The notes under the pieces were generated by a model, which saw only the letters and a list, made by a program, of their open reading frames with translations, was not told the origin of the DNA and ran no database searches. A DNA stretch of 64,000 nucleotides from Flavobacteriaceae bacterium. Its GTDB lineage: Bacteria; Bacteroidota; Bacteroidia; Flavobacteriales; Flavobacteriaceae. Location: positions 1 to 64,000 of the forward strand of contig JANSXF010000022.1 of the NCBI GenBank assembly GCA_024743095.1, given 5' to 3'. A program made the position numbers and the translations under genes. Shown in pieces: positions 147-55,964 of the stretch (positions are counted from its first letter, which is position 1; every line of letters starts with the position of its first letter).

Positions 147-674
147 TTACAAGGCTACAAGGTGCCATTCCTTTCCATCTAAGGGGTATATGGTCATGGT
201 TTTAAATCCAATCGCCGTATGCGCCGCCAAAGACCTTTTATTTTTGTCATCCACTTCTGTGATTATGGTATCAAAACCCTTGGGCAGTTTCTCTTGCATG
301 GTTTGATACAGCTTTCGGAAAATGCCTTGTCCTCTATGAGTTTTCGCTATACAAATCTGCCCCATGGCCATATAGTTGACCTTTCTCTCAAGTACTTTAT
401 CGATTTCACGAAACATAGGGCGTAGTACTTCTATATCCTCTGCAAACTTTGGGTGCATGCACAAGGCGTAGCCTACCACCTGATCATCATCCACCGCAAT
501 AATGTGTCCACATACCTCATTCATGGCTTGCAGTACATCCAAGGTGTGTTCCACGGTCACAAAACCTTCTTTTGCGGTTTGTTCTGCGCTTATGTTTTTG
601 GGTAAATTACGTTGCTGGAGGTCCAGAATCTGTTCCAGTTCCTTCAAAGATTCCGCTTGTTTGTAAACGACCAT
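147..674 (-). CDS. GNAT family N-acetyltransferase
   Basis: A 175-residue protein of the GCN5-related N-acetyltransferase fold, expected to move an acetyl group from acetyl-CoA to an amine. The acetyl-CoA loop is visible as RGQGIFR (about residues 114-120), preceded by the usual beta-strand QICIA and followed by a helix. The C-terminal part has the TEVDDKN...A..IGF pattern often seen in this fold. The substrate cannot be told from sequence. Its ATG directly abuts the TAG stop of the M61 peptidase gene upstream on the same strand, so the two are almost certainly co-transcribed. Confidence 0.85.
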   Translation of the reverse strand: MVVYKQAESLKELEQILDLQQRNLPKNISAEQTAKEGFVTVEHTLDVLQAMNEVCGHIIAVDDDQVVGYALCMHPKFAEDIEVLRPMFREIDKVLERKVNYMAMGQICIAKTHRGQGIFRKLYQTMQEKLPKGFDTIITEVDDKNKRSLAAHTAIGFKTMTIYPLDGKEWHLVAL

Positions 675-49484: not shown

Positions 49485-50037
49485 GGTATCTAAAACAGTT
49501 TACTTCGTGGTCGTTCACCATGCCCGTGGCCTGCATATGGGCATAAATTACCGTACTACCCACAAACTTGAAGCCGCGCTTTTTTAAATCTTTGCTGATA
49601 GTATCCGATAATTCGGTCGTTGCCGGAGCATTTTTGTAGTTTTTCAACTCGTTTTTAATGGGCTTGTGGTCTGTAAATCCCCAAATGTATTCGCTGAAGC
49701 TGCCAAATTCTTTTTGGACTTCCATGAAGGCAATGGCGTTGGTGACCGTAGCATTCACTTTTAGTTTATTTCTGACGATTCCCGGGTCCTGTAGCAAGGT
49801 ATCAATCCTAGCTTGATTGTATTTTGCAATCTTTTTATAGTCAAAATGGTCAAAGGCCTGTCTAAAATTTTCACGTTTTCTTAATATGGTTATCCAGCTC
49901 AGGCCCGCCTGGAAGGTCTCCAGAATCAAGAATTCGAAAAGGGTTTCGTCGTCTTTTACAGGAACGCCCCATTCCTCGTCATGATAGGCTTCATAAAGGG
50001 TATCCCCTTCGCACCACCCACATCTATGTTTGTCCAT
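49474..50037 (-). CDS. tag: DNA-3-methyladenine glycosylase I
   Basis: A 187-residue repair enzyme that removes 3-methyladenine from DNA. The signature RCGWCEGDTLYEAYHDEEWGVP opens the protein, with the zinc-ligand cysteine; LFEFLILETFQAGLSWITIL and a C-terminal ATGMVNDHEVNCF supply the other ligands and substrate pocket. Length is normal. It is the first gene of a three-gene operon whose other products are exported, an unexpected mix. Confidence 0.96.
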   Translation of the reverse strand: MDKHRCGWCEGDTLYEAYHDEEWGVPVKDDETLFEFLILETFQAGLSWITILRKRENFRQAFDHFDYKKIAKYNQARIDTLLQDPGIVRNKLKVNATVTNAIAFMEVQKEFGSFSEYIWGFTDHKPIKNELKNYKNAPATTELSDTISKDLKKRGFKFVGSTVIYAHMQATGMVNDHEVNCFRYHEV

Positions 50038-50105
50038 AACAGTGATTTTTCAGTAAAAATAAGGAAAATAAGAAATCGTTAAGTGCAAGTTAAAGTGATG
50101 TATGT

Positions 50106-50128
50106 TAATAGTGATGCTATTATTTTTG
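50106..50128 (+). promoter_or_regulatory. -7 element and candidate TetR operator
   Basis: TATTTTTG (50121-50128) matches TAnnTTTG, 28 bases before the tetR ATG. TAATAG (50106-50111) and CTATTA (50117-50122) form an inverted repeat with a 5-base spacer that overlaps the -7 element by two bases, a good place for autorepression. Confidence 0.5.
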
Positions 50129-50156
50129 CGAGACTTTGTTTTAAAAATGGGATAGA

Positions 50157-50843
50157 ATGGACATTTTATTACAATCTGTGAAACTGGAAATGGATGAAAA
50201 ACTTTACGTAAAAGACCCTGAATCTTCGGATTTGGGGAAGAAAATCGTGGAGCAGAGTATATTGTTGGTCGATGAAATAGGTTTCGAATCCTTTACATTT
50301 AAGAAGTTGGGTGTTAGAATACGCTCAAACGAAAGTTCGATTTACCGATATTTTGAAAACAAGCACAAGTTATTGCTTTATCTGGCCTCTTGGTATTGGG
50401 GTTGGGTGGAGTACAAGATGGTTTTTTCTACCAATGCAATTTCCGATCCGGTCAAGAAATTGGCCGTTTCTATTGAGGTGTTGACACGGACCGTTGAGGA
50501 AGATTCTTCATTTTCCCATATTAACGAAGTGGTGCTCAACAAAATCATCATCAACGAATACTCAAAATCCTACCTTGTAAAGGAAATGAACAATGATGGA
50601 ACGGAAGGGAGCTTTATCATTTGTAAAAGATTAGTGGCCCGCCTTAGCAAAATGATTTCGGACGTAGATGGTAATTATGAATTTCCGACCAGTCTTGCAA
50701 GTAATGTGCTTGAAGGGTCGCTACATCAAAATTTTTTAAAATCCCATTTCCCATCCCTTACAAATTGTAGTGAAGAGGTAACCCCCACCGCATTTTTTTC
50801 GGATCTTATTTTCCGTACACTAAACCAAAAAGTACATGGCTAA
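50157..50843 (+). CDS. TetR/AcrR family regulator
   Basis: A 228-residue regulator. The N-terminal HTH is KIVEQSILLVDEIGFESFTFKKLGVRIRS followed by NESSIYRYFENKHKLLLYL, the standard TetR layout, with some 20 residues before it. The C-terminal ligand domain is mainly helical. It leads an operon with an ABC protein (8-base overlap), an HlyD-type adaptor and a TolC-type channel. The likely role is ligand-responsive repression of that operon, acting at the palindrome over its promoter. Confidence 0.88.
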   Translation: MDILLQSVKLEMDEKLYVKDPESSDLGKKIVEQSILLVDEIGFESFTFKKLGVRIRSNESSIYRYFENKHKLLLYLASWYWGWVEYKMVFSTNAISDPVKKLAVSIEVLTRTVEEDSSFSHINEVVLNKIIINEYSKSYLVKEMNNDGTEGSFIICKRLVARLSKMISDVDGNYEFPTSLASNVLEGSLHQNFLKSHFPSLTNCSEEVTPTAFFSDLIFRTLNQKVHG

Positions 50844-52503
50844 AAAAACATTCTCTGCTTGGCAGCGGCTTACCGGTTTGCTTGCCTTGGATAAAAAGGA
50901 CATTGCTCAAATTTTTTACTACGCTATTTTTGCGGGTTTGGTGAATCTCTCCCTCCCTTTGGGAATACAGGCCATTATCAACCTAATTCAGGGGGCAAGG
51001 GTAAGTACCTCTTGGATTGTACTCGTGGTCTTGGTTACCATGGGGGTCGCATTTGTAGGGGTCCTGCAGCTTATGCAGATAAGGATCATAGAGAATTTGC
51101 AGCAGAAAATCTTTACCAGATCGTCTTTTGAGTTTGCCTACCGTTTTCCAAAAATAAAAATGAGCGAACTTCGATATTATTACCCTCCGGAGTTGGCCAA
51201 CCGTTTTTTTGATACCCTTACAGTGCAAAAATCCCTGTCCAAAATATTGATTGATTTTCCTGCAGCACTGCTTCAGATAGTTTTCGGGCTTTTGTTGCTG
51301 TCCTTTTATCATCCCTTTTTTATTATATACGGGCTGTTATTGTTGGTGCTCATTTACATTGTGTTCAAGTTTACCGCACAAAGGGGATTGGACACCAGTT
51401 TGGAAGAGTCAAAAATCAAATACAAAGTGGCACATTGGGTGCAAGAAATTGCCCGTTCCATTATCAGTTTCAAACTCTCTGGAAAGACTTCCCATGCCCT
51501 TGATAAGAACGATACTTTGGTCGATGATTATTTGGATGCAAGGGAAAGCCACTTTAGAGTGTTGGTATTGCAATTCATCCAAATGATCGGTTTCAAGGTT
51601 TTGGTCACCGCAGGATTACTTTTGATAGGAGGGCTCTTGGTGTTGGAACAACAAATGAACATTGGTCAGTTTGTGGCCGCGGAAATCATCATTCTGTTGG
51701 TAATAAGCTCAGTTGAAAAATTGATATTGGGCCTCGAGACGTTTTATGATTTGTTGACTTCATTGGAAAAAATGGGACAGGTAGTGGACAAAGAGCTGGA
51801 ATCCCAAAACGGGGAAACACCCTTCAAAGACAATGAGGGGCTCACCGTGGAACTAGAGGATGTGGTCTACAAAGTTCCCGGACTGGATAAGAAAATCATA
51901 GATCATCTGACACTTGCCATAAAACCGGACACCAAATTGTTGATACAGGGCAAGAGCGGATCGGGAAGGTCAACATTGCTCAGGATGATCGCAGGTATTC
52001 TAGAACCGGACGAGGGGAAGATATACGTGAACAATGTGGCGCTCAAAGGAATCAAATTAAGTAAGTATCGATCATACTTGGGCCATTCGCTAACAGAGGA
52101 ATATCCCTTTGAGGGAACCTTGTTGGACAACATTACTTTCGGGAACAAGGACATTTCCATGGAAGATGTGTACTGGGCCTTGGAGAAAGTAAGTCTTTCG
52201 GAATTTGTGAAAGAGCAGCCGCAGGGGCTCAAAACCATTTTGTATCCCGAAGGGAAAAAGATTCCTGATTTTATTTCCAGAAAGATCGTTCTGGCCCGAA
52301 GCATAGTAACCCGCCCCAAATTAATGGTGCTCAAGGATCCATTGGAGCAATACGATGAGGAGGAAACAGAAAGGATGATGGATTTCTTAACAGATCCGGC
52401 CAACGGATGGGCCTTGGTCGTTGTGAGCGAGAATCCCAAATGGGCAAAACGCTGCAATCAAGTGATCCGTATGGAAAAAGGTAGATTGATCAACGTAAAT
52501 TAA
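50836..52503 (+). CDS. ABC exporter with degenerate ATPase motifs
   Basis: A 555-residue fusion of a six-helix exporter domain (about 20-300) and a nucleotide-binding domain (about 335-555), as in type I secretion and lipid exporters. All ATPase motifs are altered. Walker A is GKSGSGRST with Arg378 for Lys. The Q-loop Gln is missing (YLGHS). IPDFI (476-480) stands where LSGGQ should be. Walker B ends LKDP, with Lys500 for Asp and Asp501 for the catalytic Glu. The H-loop His is Glu532 (VVSENP). The fold and length are intact, so it is a pseudo-ATPase rather than a decayed gene. No C39 peptidase domain is present. Confidence 0.9.
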   Translation: MAKKTFSAWQRLTGLLALDKKDIAQIFYYAIFAGLVNLSLPLGIQAIINLIQGARVSTSWIVLVVLVTMGVAFVGVLQLMQIRIIENLQQKIFTRSSFEFAYRFPKIKMSELRYYYPPELANRFFDTLTVQKSLSKILIDFPAALLQIVFGLLLLSFYHPFFIIYGLLLLVLIYIVFKFTAQRGLDTSLEESKIKYKVAHWVQEIARSIISFKLSGKTSHALDKNDTLVDDYLDARESHFRVLVLQFIQMIGFKVLVTAGLLLIGGLLVLEQQMNIGQFVAAEIIILLVISSVEKLILGLETFYDLLTSLEKMGQVVDKELESQNGETPFKDNEGLTVELEDVVYKVPGLDKKIIDHLTLAIKPDTKLLIQGKSGSGRSTLLRMIAGILEPDEGKIYVNNVALKGIKLSKYRSYLGHSLTEEYPFEGTLLDNITFGNKDISMEDVYWALEKVSLSEFVKEQPQGLKTILYPEGKKIPDFISRKIVLARSIVTRPKLMVLKDPLEQYDEEETERMMDFLTDPANGWALVVVSENPKWAKRCNQVIRMEKGRLINVN

Positions 52504-52508
52504 AGTTC

Positions 52509-53864
52509 ATGCTGAATATTTCTTCAAATAATAAACTGAACGAAAAGGTGGACCTGACCGGCTACGAAGCAGGTAAAAAAGTGTTCCATAAAAGACATTA
52601 CAAGCAGTTTAACCGTTTCTTGGCATCCTTTTCCATTATTGCAGTTTTTATGATGTTTCTGCCTTGGACACAGAATATTTCGGGCAGGGGGTATTTAACC
52701 ACCCTCACTCCAGATCAGCGACCACAAACGGTTCAGTCCCCAATACCCGGCAGGATTGAAAAATGGTATGTCAGAGAAGGCCAGTATGTGGAAAAGGGAG
52801 ATACCATTTTGCATATTTCCGAGGTAAAGAGCGAATACTTTGACCCGGATTTGATAGAACGGACGGGCAAACAGATCAAGGCCAAGTCCATGTCCGTAAC
52901 ATCCTATCAGGAAAAGGTCAAAGCCCTGAACCAACAGATAAGGGCCTTGAACCAAGAACTTGGTCTAAAGTTGGAACAGGCCAGAAATAAATTAATGCAG
53001 TCAAAGTTAAAGGTAAAGAGCGACAGTATTGATCTAGAAGCTGCCAAGACCAATATATCTATTGCCCAGAGACAGTACGATCGGGTGAAAAAACTGCAAG
53101 ATGAAGGGTTAAAAGCTGTTACAGATCTAGAGGAAAAACGGTTAAAATTGCAGGAGACACAGGCCAAACTTATCAGTCAGGAGAATAAATTGTTGGCCAG
53201 CAAAAATGATGTGATCAATGCCCAAGTGGAAATCAATAGGGTACAGGCGGAATACACCGATAAAATATCAAAAGCACAAAGTGATCTTTATACCGCCCAA
53301 TCCAATCAATTTGATTCTGAGGCGCAGGTGACAAAGCTGGAAAACCAGTATACCAATTATGAAATGAGGAACAATATGCTTTTTATAAGAGCACCTCAAA
53401 ACGGATATATCACCAAGGCCATCCAATCAGGAATTGGCGAGACTTTTAAAGAAGGGGCCCAGTTGGTCGGTATAATGCCTTCGGATTATGATATAGCCGT
53501 GGAAACATATGTGGACCCCATCGACCTTCCCTTGATCCATGTGGATGAAAAAGTGAGGATCCAATTCGATGGCTGGCCTGCCATTGTATTCAGTGGTTGG
53601 CCCAATGTTTCGTATGGTACCTTTGGTGGCAAAGTCGTCGCCATAGAGAACTTTATCAGTCCCAATGGGAAGTATCGTGTATTGCTTGCTCCAGACGACG
53701 AAGAGGCTTCATGGCCCAAGGATATCCGTGTAGGTTCGGGAGCAAGTACCATGGCCCTGTTGGAAGATGTTCCCATTTGGTATGAGTTGTGGAGGCAGTT
53801 AAATGGCTTCCCGCCAAATTATTATCAACCTCAAAATACGACTGCAGATGCCGCAAAGAAATAG
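52509..53864 (+). CDS. HlyD-type membrane fusion protein
   Basis: A 451-residue periplasmic adaptor with one N-terminal membrane helix (about 38-57). A split biotinyl-lipoyl-like domain (RPQTVQSPIPGRIEKWYVREGQYVEKGDTIL) brackets a long coiled-coil hairpin (about 125-275). A beta-barrel domain follows (VRIQFDGWPAIVFSGWPN and GGKVVAIENFISPNGKYRVLL). It should bridge the inner-membrane ABC protein and the TolC-type channel. It starts five bases after the ABC gene and overlaps the next gene by 17 bases. Confidence 0.92.
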   Translation: MLNISSNNKLNEKVDLTGYEAGKKVFHKRHYKQFNRFLASFSIIAVFMMFLPWTQNISGRGYLTTLTPDQRPQTVQSPIPGRIEKWYVREGQYVEKGDTILHISEVKSEYFDPDLIERTGKQIKAKSMSVTSYQEKVKALNQQIRALNQELGLKLEQARNKLMQSKLKVKSDSIDLEAAKTNISIAQRQYDRVKKLQDEGLKAVTDLEEKRLKLQETQAKLISQENKLLASKNDVINAQVEINRVQAEYTDKISKAQSDLYTAQSNQFDSEAQVTKLENQYTNYEMRNNMLFIRAPQNGYITKAIQSGIGETFKEGAQLVGIMPSDYDIAVETYVDPIDLPLIHVDEKVRIQFDGWPAIVFSGWPNVSYGTFGGKVVAIENFISPNGKYRVLLAPDDEEASWPKDIRVGSGASTMALLEDVPIWYELWRQLNGFPPNYYQPQNTTADAAKK

Positions 53865-55263: not shown

Positions 55264-55322
55264 GGTTTCGATCCAATGAGCAACCAATGACAAAAGTCAG
55301 CAAACAGCTAAATGCACGGCGC

Positions 55323-55330
55323 TACTTTTG
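55323..55330 (+). promoter_or_regulatory. -7 element for the thioredoxin-like gene
   Basis: TACTTTTG matches TAnnTTTG, 13 bases before the ATG, so the leader is very short. Confidence 0.5.
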
Positions 55331-55343
55331 TAAAAACAGTTTT

Positions 55344-55964
55344 ATGGAAATACTGGAGAAGAATAGATTGGAAATGGTCCAGGAATACATTTCAAAAGCG
55401 ATGGGTTATCCAAGGTATCGTGCGTTGGTCTCCCAATTGGCCTTGGCAGGTGGTTCCACCGGTCCCAATCAATCCGAAATATATGTAAATTACACCAAGT
55501 TGGGGGATAAACGGATGTCGCGCTGGGAAAAGACATTCAAGATTTCCGAAGAGCTCCGGCAAAAACTAAAATCCTACGATAGGGAGTTAGTGTTGCTCGC
55601 ACTTACCGAAAGTTGGTGCGGAGATGCAGCGGCCAGTTTGCCCATTATCGATAAAATTGCCGGGGCGAGCCCGAATATTTCGTTACAGGTGGTATTGCGT
55701 GATGAGAACCTGGATCTTATGGATACTTTCCTTACCAACGGGGCGCGGTCCATTCCCAAAGTCATCATGTTTGATAAGGTCAACAAGGAAATCGTTGGAG
55801 AGTGGGGGCCAAGACCGAGCATTGCGACGCAAATGGTGGAGGACTGCAAAAAAGAGCATGGTAAATTGACCGATGAGTTCAAACAAGAACTGCAACTTTG
55901 GTACAATAAAAATAAGGGACAAAATATTTTGGAAGATATTCTGGAATTACTTGCTCTGGAATAA
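55344..55964 (+). CDS. Thioredoxin-like protein with single active-site cysteine
   Basis: A 206-residue cytoplasmic protein with a thioredoxin fold in its second half. The active-site stretch is LALTESWCGDAAASLPII, so the usual C-x-x-C has become C-G-D-A and the resolving Cys is lost. The TKQ-like cis-proline site appears as GARSIPKVIMFD. I recall this WCGDAA form as common in a Bacteroidota subfamily. A downstream ATG was chosen over 55287, which would add a poor leader. It lies 80 bases after the TolC gene and may have its own promoter. Confidence 0.82.
   Translation: MEILEKNRLEMVQEYISKAMGYPRYRALVSQLALAGGSTGPNQSEIYVNYTKLGDKRMSRWEKTFKISEELRQKLKSYDRELVLLALTESWCGDAAASLPIIDKIAGASPNISLQVVLRDENLDLMDTFLTNGARSIPKVIMFDKVNKEIVGEWGPRPSIATQMVEDCKKEHGKLTDEFKQELQLWYNKNKGQNILEDILELLALE

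Follow-up and report, generated by a model that had tools for sequence, protein, structure and literature searches.

A HlyD–TolC operon whose ABC-exporter-like protein has a degenerate ATPase domain, and relatives in which that domain is absent

What could drive an exporter in which every ATPase motif has been altered? The question is raised by a gene in the window, that is, the whole stretch of 64,000 nucleotides analysed here (positions 1 to 64,000 of contig JANSXF010000022.1, assembly GCA_024743095.1, from a Flavobacteriaceae bacterium). It encodes a protein resembling ATP-binding cassette (ABC) exporters, in an operon with a HlyD-type adaptor and a TolC-family channel, the partners found in type I secretion. 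The answer favoured here is that the operon encodes a tripartite transporter that works without ATP hydrolysis and is driven by ions, an explanation whose chances, taken as a whole, appear evenly balanced. Its parts are not equally secure: the window protein very probably does not hydrolyse ATP, and the membrane domain, HlyD and TolC in all likelihood form the working unit; ion-coupled transport, which is argued by analogy, is possible if not quite probable.

ATPase motifs in the window protein and its relatives

The window protein has retained a six-helix membrane domain and the fold of the nucleotide-binding domain (NBD), according to an AlphaFold2 model (pLDDT 84.7), Pfam (ABC_membrane, 35.4 bits against a cut-off of 28; ABC_tran, 54.1 bits against a cut-off of 25) and fold comparison. 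The motifs of an active type IV ABC exporter are gone: there is no standard Walker A Lys, Q-loop Gln, signature, Walker B Asp-Glu or H-loop His. Walker A reads GKSGSGRST (residues 372–380), with R378 in place of Lys; the Gln column of the Q-loop is occupied by T420 (aligned by eye with the other exporters of the genome); the Walker B region reads LMVLKDP (496–502), with K500 for Asp and D501 for Glu; and the H-loop region reads SENPKW (531–536), with E532 for His. (The ORF, or open reading frame, its length of 555 residues and all the residues named in an earlier note on this DNA proved correct on re-reading.) Judged by sequence motifs alone, the ATP-driven inner-membrane component of a type I secretion system would be missing. 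The architecture is that of a tripartite exporter, yet the protein appears to have the ATPase neither of an active ABC exporter nor of a type I secretion system.

This is not the rule in its genome. Counting the window protein, the same assembly (94.56% complete) yielded eight ABC_membrane proteins, and the other seven all have the Walker A Lys, Q-loop Gln, S-x-G signature, Walker B Asp and H-loop His. The catalytic Glu is present in six of them, with Asp in the seventh, L254. Against these seven, all of them standard or close to it, the window protein stands out as the exception. (The L254 exporter, at L254:1450-3204, reads LFDD with otherwise standard motifs and resembles one half of a heterodimeric exporter.)

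With E 1e-50 as the upper limit, the family was matched in 143 of the 295 genomes sampled from the window's class (Bacteroidia in GTDB) and in 100 of the 296 sampled from its order. The family set comprised 156 aligned rows, to which eight were added later (164 rows). Motifs were counted in 136 rows, being the 156 minus 17 relatives from the phylum found via HlyD and three alphaproteobacterial rows; these 136 include 38 from the same genus, three genomes labelled 'same phylum' (L229, L238, L239) and three plasmid records (L258, L259, L262), and 126 have an NBD (L085, which runs into a contig end, was excluded from the NBD counts). A complete motif set is found in none of the 126. The Walker A Lys is kept in 89, the S-x-G signature in three, the Walker B Asp-Glu in two and the H-loop His in four, and a few of these 'kept' motifs may be artefacts of automatic columns that are unreliable in L086, L087, L090 and L262; L088 and L089, in which LSGLD lies one column off, were scored as signature-less. 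Walker A is unrecognisable in L086, L242, L268, L269 and L281.

The 17 relatives from the phylum are mostly near-intact (Lys in 17, S-x-G in seven, Asp-Glu in 16, His in 15). L210–L213, for example, have a standard Walker A, LSTGQ or LSTGE, DE and H, and are without the Q-loop Gln. In trees of the membrane domain, the near-intact rows fall outside the clade of the degenerate rows of the class (support 98 and 97 in quick trees, which omit the incomplete L265 and near-duplicates and, in the second tree, also the long-branch rows L090, L267, L088 and L089). Three alphaproteobacterial plasmid copies (Novosphingobium, Croceicoccus and Sphingobium) have neither the Walker A Lys nor Walker B, and one of them, L260, retains LSVGE. 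Their outside position in the tree suggests a separate decay in Alphaproteobacteria, as far as three long-branch rows can tell. (These copies, L260, L261 and L263, lie on sphingomonad plasmids, in records of 57 to 762 kb, each with a degenerate NBD and adjoining HlyD and TolC.)

Could the gene simply be decaying, as the lost ATPase motifs might imply, or the window strain be misassembled? An orthologue of 67–95% identity is carried by 54 of 59 other genomes of the same genus (the five without are G011, G028, G037, G040 and G041; the copy in G029 is interrupted by a contig end). The substitution of Arg for Lys at Walker A occurs in part of the window's genus and in scattered distant rows, and the remaining losses are family-wide. 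Among close orthologues, the ratio of nonsynonymous to synonymous substitution rates (dN/dS) has a median of 0.018 in the membrane domain and 0.046 in the NBD, as calculated from just 17 and nine pairs, respectively, with usable dS out of 820. Purifying selection acts on both domains, less strongly on the NBD. A pseudogene, strain-specific decay or an assembly error is rejected on these grounds and retains practically no probability; the motif changes that the earlier note wanted compared among orthologues are conserved far beyond one strain and one genus.

Relatives without the ATPase domain

The NBD is absent from 15 of the 164 rows, in six by deletion and in nine by fusion. The deletions (L080–L084 and L237) are closed ORFs of 332–339 residues that match the membrane domain alone and are followed by HlyD and then TolC. 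In the fusions, which are ORFs of 732–781 residues with TolC next, the membrane domain is joined straight to HlyD; L091, L092 and L264 come from the class and L284–L289 from a single genus of the window's own order. Consecutive stretches of these ORFs match residues 1 to about 303–354 of the window protein and then the adaptor from about residue 35, so that HlyD occupies the place of the NBD. The six deletions form one clade in quick trees and the nine fusions two, while approximately unbiased (AU) tests reject neither a single origin of the fusions (p 0.73; the constrained tree scores higher) nor a single origin of all 15 rows (p 0.22). NBD loss has one to three origins, and the claim made here is limited to one.

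The partners have been kept throughout. HlyD and TolC are present at 73 of 74 loci with long flanks, the exception being L085, which is truncated by its contig end; the earlier description of them as intact is borne out. With the motifs lost, the partners kept and the NBD absent in some lineages, the core of the system would be the membrane domain with HlyD and TolC. It also appears that ATP hydrolysis by the window protein, which the earlier note had doubted, is not needed, as the motifs have been lost family-wide and the NBD is dispensable in some lineages.

The membrane domain is also where conservation is concentrated: of the 114 columns that are invariant across 62 relatives with an NBD, it holds 97 and the NBD 17. 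(This count was limited to NBD-bearing rows, since rows without the domain bias it toward the membrane domain.) In the sixth transmembrane helix (TM6), the motif GQ[FL]VA[AS]E ends in Glu283, which is Glu in 154 of 156 rows, NBD-less ones included. E86, K132, K136, K195, E283, K295, D305 and K312 are unchanged in all 15 NBD-less rows, in which position 294 is always acidic and position 254 always basic. The charged set is missing at the aligned columns of 12 control ABC exporters, seven from the window genome and five related, where the alignment is less sure. There is also a polar change at Q147, from V or I to Q in 93 of 101 rows; the three alphaproteobacterial rows also have Q.

What might drive transport

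How might such a system work? The operon would encode a TetR-linked tripartite transporter consisting of an inner-membrane protein, the HlyD adaptor and the TolC channel, presumably derived, with the loss of ATP hydrolysis, from an ABC exporter like those of type I secretion. A homodimer of the membrane domain would dock on HlyD and TolC and move a small or lipid-like substrate outward. In the least certain step, an ion gradient would drive alternating access through the membrane domain, perhaps with the help of K136 and D140 (TM3), K/R254 (TM5), and E283, E294 and K295 (TM6). What remains of the ATPase domain would have been retained, in the lineage of the window, as a structural or regulatory cap.

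An ion gradient is favoured because SbmA and NBD-stripped MsbA provide precedents. SbmA is described as an NBD-less, proton-driven protein with the membrane fold of ABC exporters, and descent of such proteins from full-length ABC transporters has been proposed (PMC13316013); the likeness to SbmA/BacA (SLiPT) proteins consists in this fold working without an NBD. The membrane domain of MsbA is reported to carry out ethidium efflux by itself on a pH gradient (PMC4979069). There are differences. The coupling-helix region is kept in the relatives reduced to the membrane domain and is lacking in SLiPTs, and the window family, unlike SbmA/BacA, is linked to HlyD and TolC and is without a clear glutamate ladder. 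No SbmA/BacA family (presumably PF05992) was among the Pfam matches at limits from 0.001 to 0.1, the library's inclusion of that model being unchecked, and SbmA was not among the 50 matches listed in the fold comparison, which is no evidence of a different fold.

LmrA without its NBD is a further laboratory truncation. To our knowledge, the case for a natural change of energy source in an ABC exporter has so far consisted of SbmA and the laboratory truncations of MsbA and LmrA; the latter two were engineered, whereas NBD loss in the window family is natural. Here one homologous operon presents a graded natural series, from a near-intact ATPase to none, with its partners unchanged, and such a series, in a family found in nearly half of the sampled class genomes (143 of 295), makes the question of the energy source directly testable. 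It also means that for many genes carrying the annotation 'ABC transporter ATP-binding protein' the product is probably no ATPase. If the explanation is true, the stages of a switch from ATP to ions (intact; signature lost; only Walker A left; NBD gone; membrane domain fused to HlyD) are all alive in one orthologous operon. An ABC-derived ion-coupled exporter might then, as a tentative proposal, be counted as a fourth class of inner-membrane engine in tripartite envelope transporters, beside ABC, RND and MFS.

A number of observations weigh against this explanation. The charged set is already present in the near-intact relatives and so predates NBD loss, D140 is lost in four of the 15 NBD-less rows, and a comparison of rows finds no acidic residue gained alongside the loss. 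(Re-powering through a gained acidic residue was tested and not found; the sequences give no sign of re-powering.) In the model, the layout of the charged residues appears to form no clear SbmA-like glutamate ladder; going by the helix ends only, E283 lies in the outer half of TM6, with D140, K254, E294 and K295 nearer the inner side, and E283 could dock HlyD instead. Purifying selection on the NBD in the window's genus means that the domain does something there. The fusions, moreover, reach the Pfam cut-off for ABC_membrane in only one of five scanned (L264; L091 falls below it and L092, L285 and L287 are not listed), and because of this their membrane domain is assigned by BLAST to the window protein and by alignment. 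Finally, a further ABC-type ORF lies in the flank at four of the 74 loci (L038, L167, L237 and L238), and the one at L237, which is itself NBD-less, is an ABC ATPase of 282 residues found by BLAST 1.3 kb after TolC (L237:10019-10867).

The main rival to ion coupling is a passive gate or scaffold, in which the membrane domain anchors and opens the HlyD–TolC duct, the substrate moving down its own gradient or entering from the periplasm or outer leaflet after being handed over by another transporter. In its favour, no charge was gained when the NBD was lost, the direct fusion to HlyD gives the membrane domain the appearance of an anchor, and at two loci of one genus (L218, L222) no ABC-like gene was found adjacent to HlyD and TolC. 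On the other hand, the membrane domain is conserved over its full length, beyond what an anchor would need, as its dN/dS and share of invariant columns indicate, and the passive gate is considered somewhat unlikely. The remnant domain might instead bind ATP without hydrolysing it, acting as a sensor that gates the membrane domain in the lineages that keep Walker A. The many rows with the Walker A Lys and the selection on the NBD would fit such a sensor; Arg replaces that Lys in the window's subclade, five rows have no recognisable Walker A and 15 have no NBD at all, which leaves the idea improbable.

What of an ATPase supplied by another protein? The earlier note had considered pairing with a distant active ABC subunit, and the window genome does have seven other ABC exporters from which a heterodimer partner, or a separate ATPase docking in trans, could be drawn. 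The coupling-helix region of the first intracellular loop (ICL1) aligns without gaps in the rows missing only the NBD, and to the extra ORFs at the four loci can be added an exporter right after TolC at L228. Heterodimeric exporters such as TmrAB and TM287/288, which share the fold and some lost catalytic residues with the window protein, keep one composite site active. With Walker B and the signature both missing from a single chain here, a mixed dimer would have no standard composite ATP site, and both half-sites are spoiled; extra ABC ORFs flank only 4/74 loci, and in the fused and NBD-less forms there is no NBD available for pairing. No active half-transporter adjoins the window gene among the window's ORFs as searched with Pfam, and a crude motif scan for an NBD in trans at nine NBD-less or fused loci gave one candidate (L081:964-2196, about 3.3 kb upstream on the opposite strand), a scan that left out L284–L289 and overlooked the L237 ATPase. 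A partner ATPase is accordingly very improbable.

The operon, its surroundings and comparable systems

The coordinates of the operon and its parts are collected in Table 1. The TolC ORF overlaps the HlyD gene, and the real TolC start is perhaps further in.

Table 1. The tripartite operon and its parts in window coordinates
Feature	Position	Strand	Basis
TetR-type regulator, 228 aa	50157..50843	+	TetR_N 24.2 bits (Pfam cut-off 24)
ABC-exporter-like protein, 555 aa, with catalytically degenerate ATPase domain	50836..52503	+	
Membrane domain, about residues 1-320, conserved core	50836..51795	+	AlphaFold2 model, invariant columns
Model helices of the membrane domain: 20-52, 58-106, 117-156, 161-207, 220-270, 276-317			AlphaFold2
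Glu283 in TM6 motif GQFVAAE	51682..51684	+	Row alignment
Degenerate NBD, residues 330-555	51823..52500	+	Pfam, motifs, AlphaFold2
Arg378 where the Walker A Lys is expected	51967..51969	+	
YLGHS, 414-418, Q-loop region without Gln	52075..52089	+	
IPDFI, 476-480, at the place of LSGGQ	52261..52275	+	
Lys500-Asp501 at the place of the Walker B Asp-Glu	52333..52338	+	
Glu532 at the place of the H-loop His	52429..52431	+	
HlyD-type periplasmic adaptor, 451 aa, 5 nt 3' of the ABC-like gene	52509..53864	+	
TolC-family outer-membrane channel, ORF of at most 486 aa	53803..55263	+	OEP 129.1 bits

Control by the TetR gene, as the earlier note proposed, is plausible, as this gene and the ABC-like gene overlap by 8 bp, but a TetR homologue was found at just 36 of the 74 loci. 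A search for a TetR operator found no inverted repeat at window positions 50000-50260, and promoter and terminator scans were at chance level. Besides HlyD, TolC and TetR, no neighbour recurs at more than eight of the 74 loci, and no recurrent linked substrate gene was seen. (The one larger neighbour cluster comes from 23 loci; 36 of its 37 ORFs are reads in reverse or in another frame that overlap genes of the operon.) A Thioredoxin_9 protein is encoded just downstream of TolC (window 55287-55964); a homologue lies near the operon, at variable distance, in those loci examined that belong to the same genus, and none was seen at the examined loci of other genera.

The operon shares the HlyD adaptor and TolC channel with the type I secretion exporters (HlyB/HlyD/TolC; NCBIfam TIGR03375, TIGR03796), and differs from them in the missing ATPase motifs, in having relatives with the NBD absent or replaced by HlyD and in that no recurrent substrate gene was seen beside it. 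The annotation of homologues reads either 'ABC transporter ATP-binding protein' or 'ABC transporter transmembrane domain-containing protein', and the scans made gave no family-specific Pfam or NCBIfam model, the NCBIfam scores shown being far below cut-off. In the open-access PMC literature (titles and abstracts, and a full-text term search), no account of an NBD-dead or NBD-less HlyD–TolC system was found, in agreement with the earlier suggestion of an undescribed export system. The sphingomonad pump 'HlyBD2-OMP2' of Blastomonas fulva is treated as an ordinary ABC pump in one report, where a match is given to Novosphingobium aromaticivorans DSM 12444, from which L260 comes (PMC9505733); going by that report, it may be a member of the window family.

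Some further features of the relatives deserve mention. An extra N-terminal domain of about 140–250 residues precedes the membrane domain in L093, L098, L088, L086, L211, L214, L217 and L226; no Pfam match is listed for this domain in the relatives of 700–830 residues, and it is perhaps what is left of the C39-like domain found in type I secretion ABC proteins. The G112 genome has two family members, L093 and L094. L259 (NZ_CP081938.1), a Riemerella record labelled as a plasmid, has the operon beside chromosomal-type fabG, murB and rsmI and may be a mislabelled piece of chromosome. At L038, a 564-residue ABC-type protein near the operon (L038:9968-11662) gives a weak match of 42.7 bits, and the protein after TolC at L228 (L228:9664-11415) is an ordinary ABC exporter with standard motifs, L228 itself being near-intact. 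The HlyD and TolC homologues for which no adjacent ABC-like gene was found (L222:3971-10535 and L218:161-4583) are preceded by PGA_cap and methylmalonyl-CoA mutase genes at L222 and by a CHASE3 protein gene at L218; their genomes (G690 and G624) share genus g295, and they may represent an adaptor–channel pair without an inner-membrane partner.
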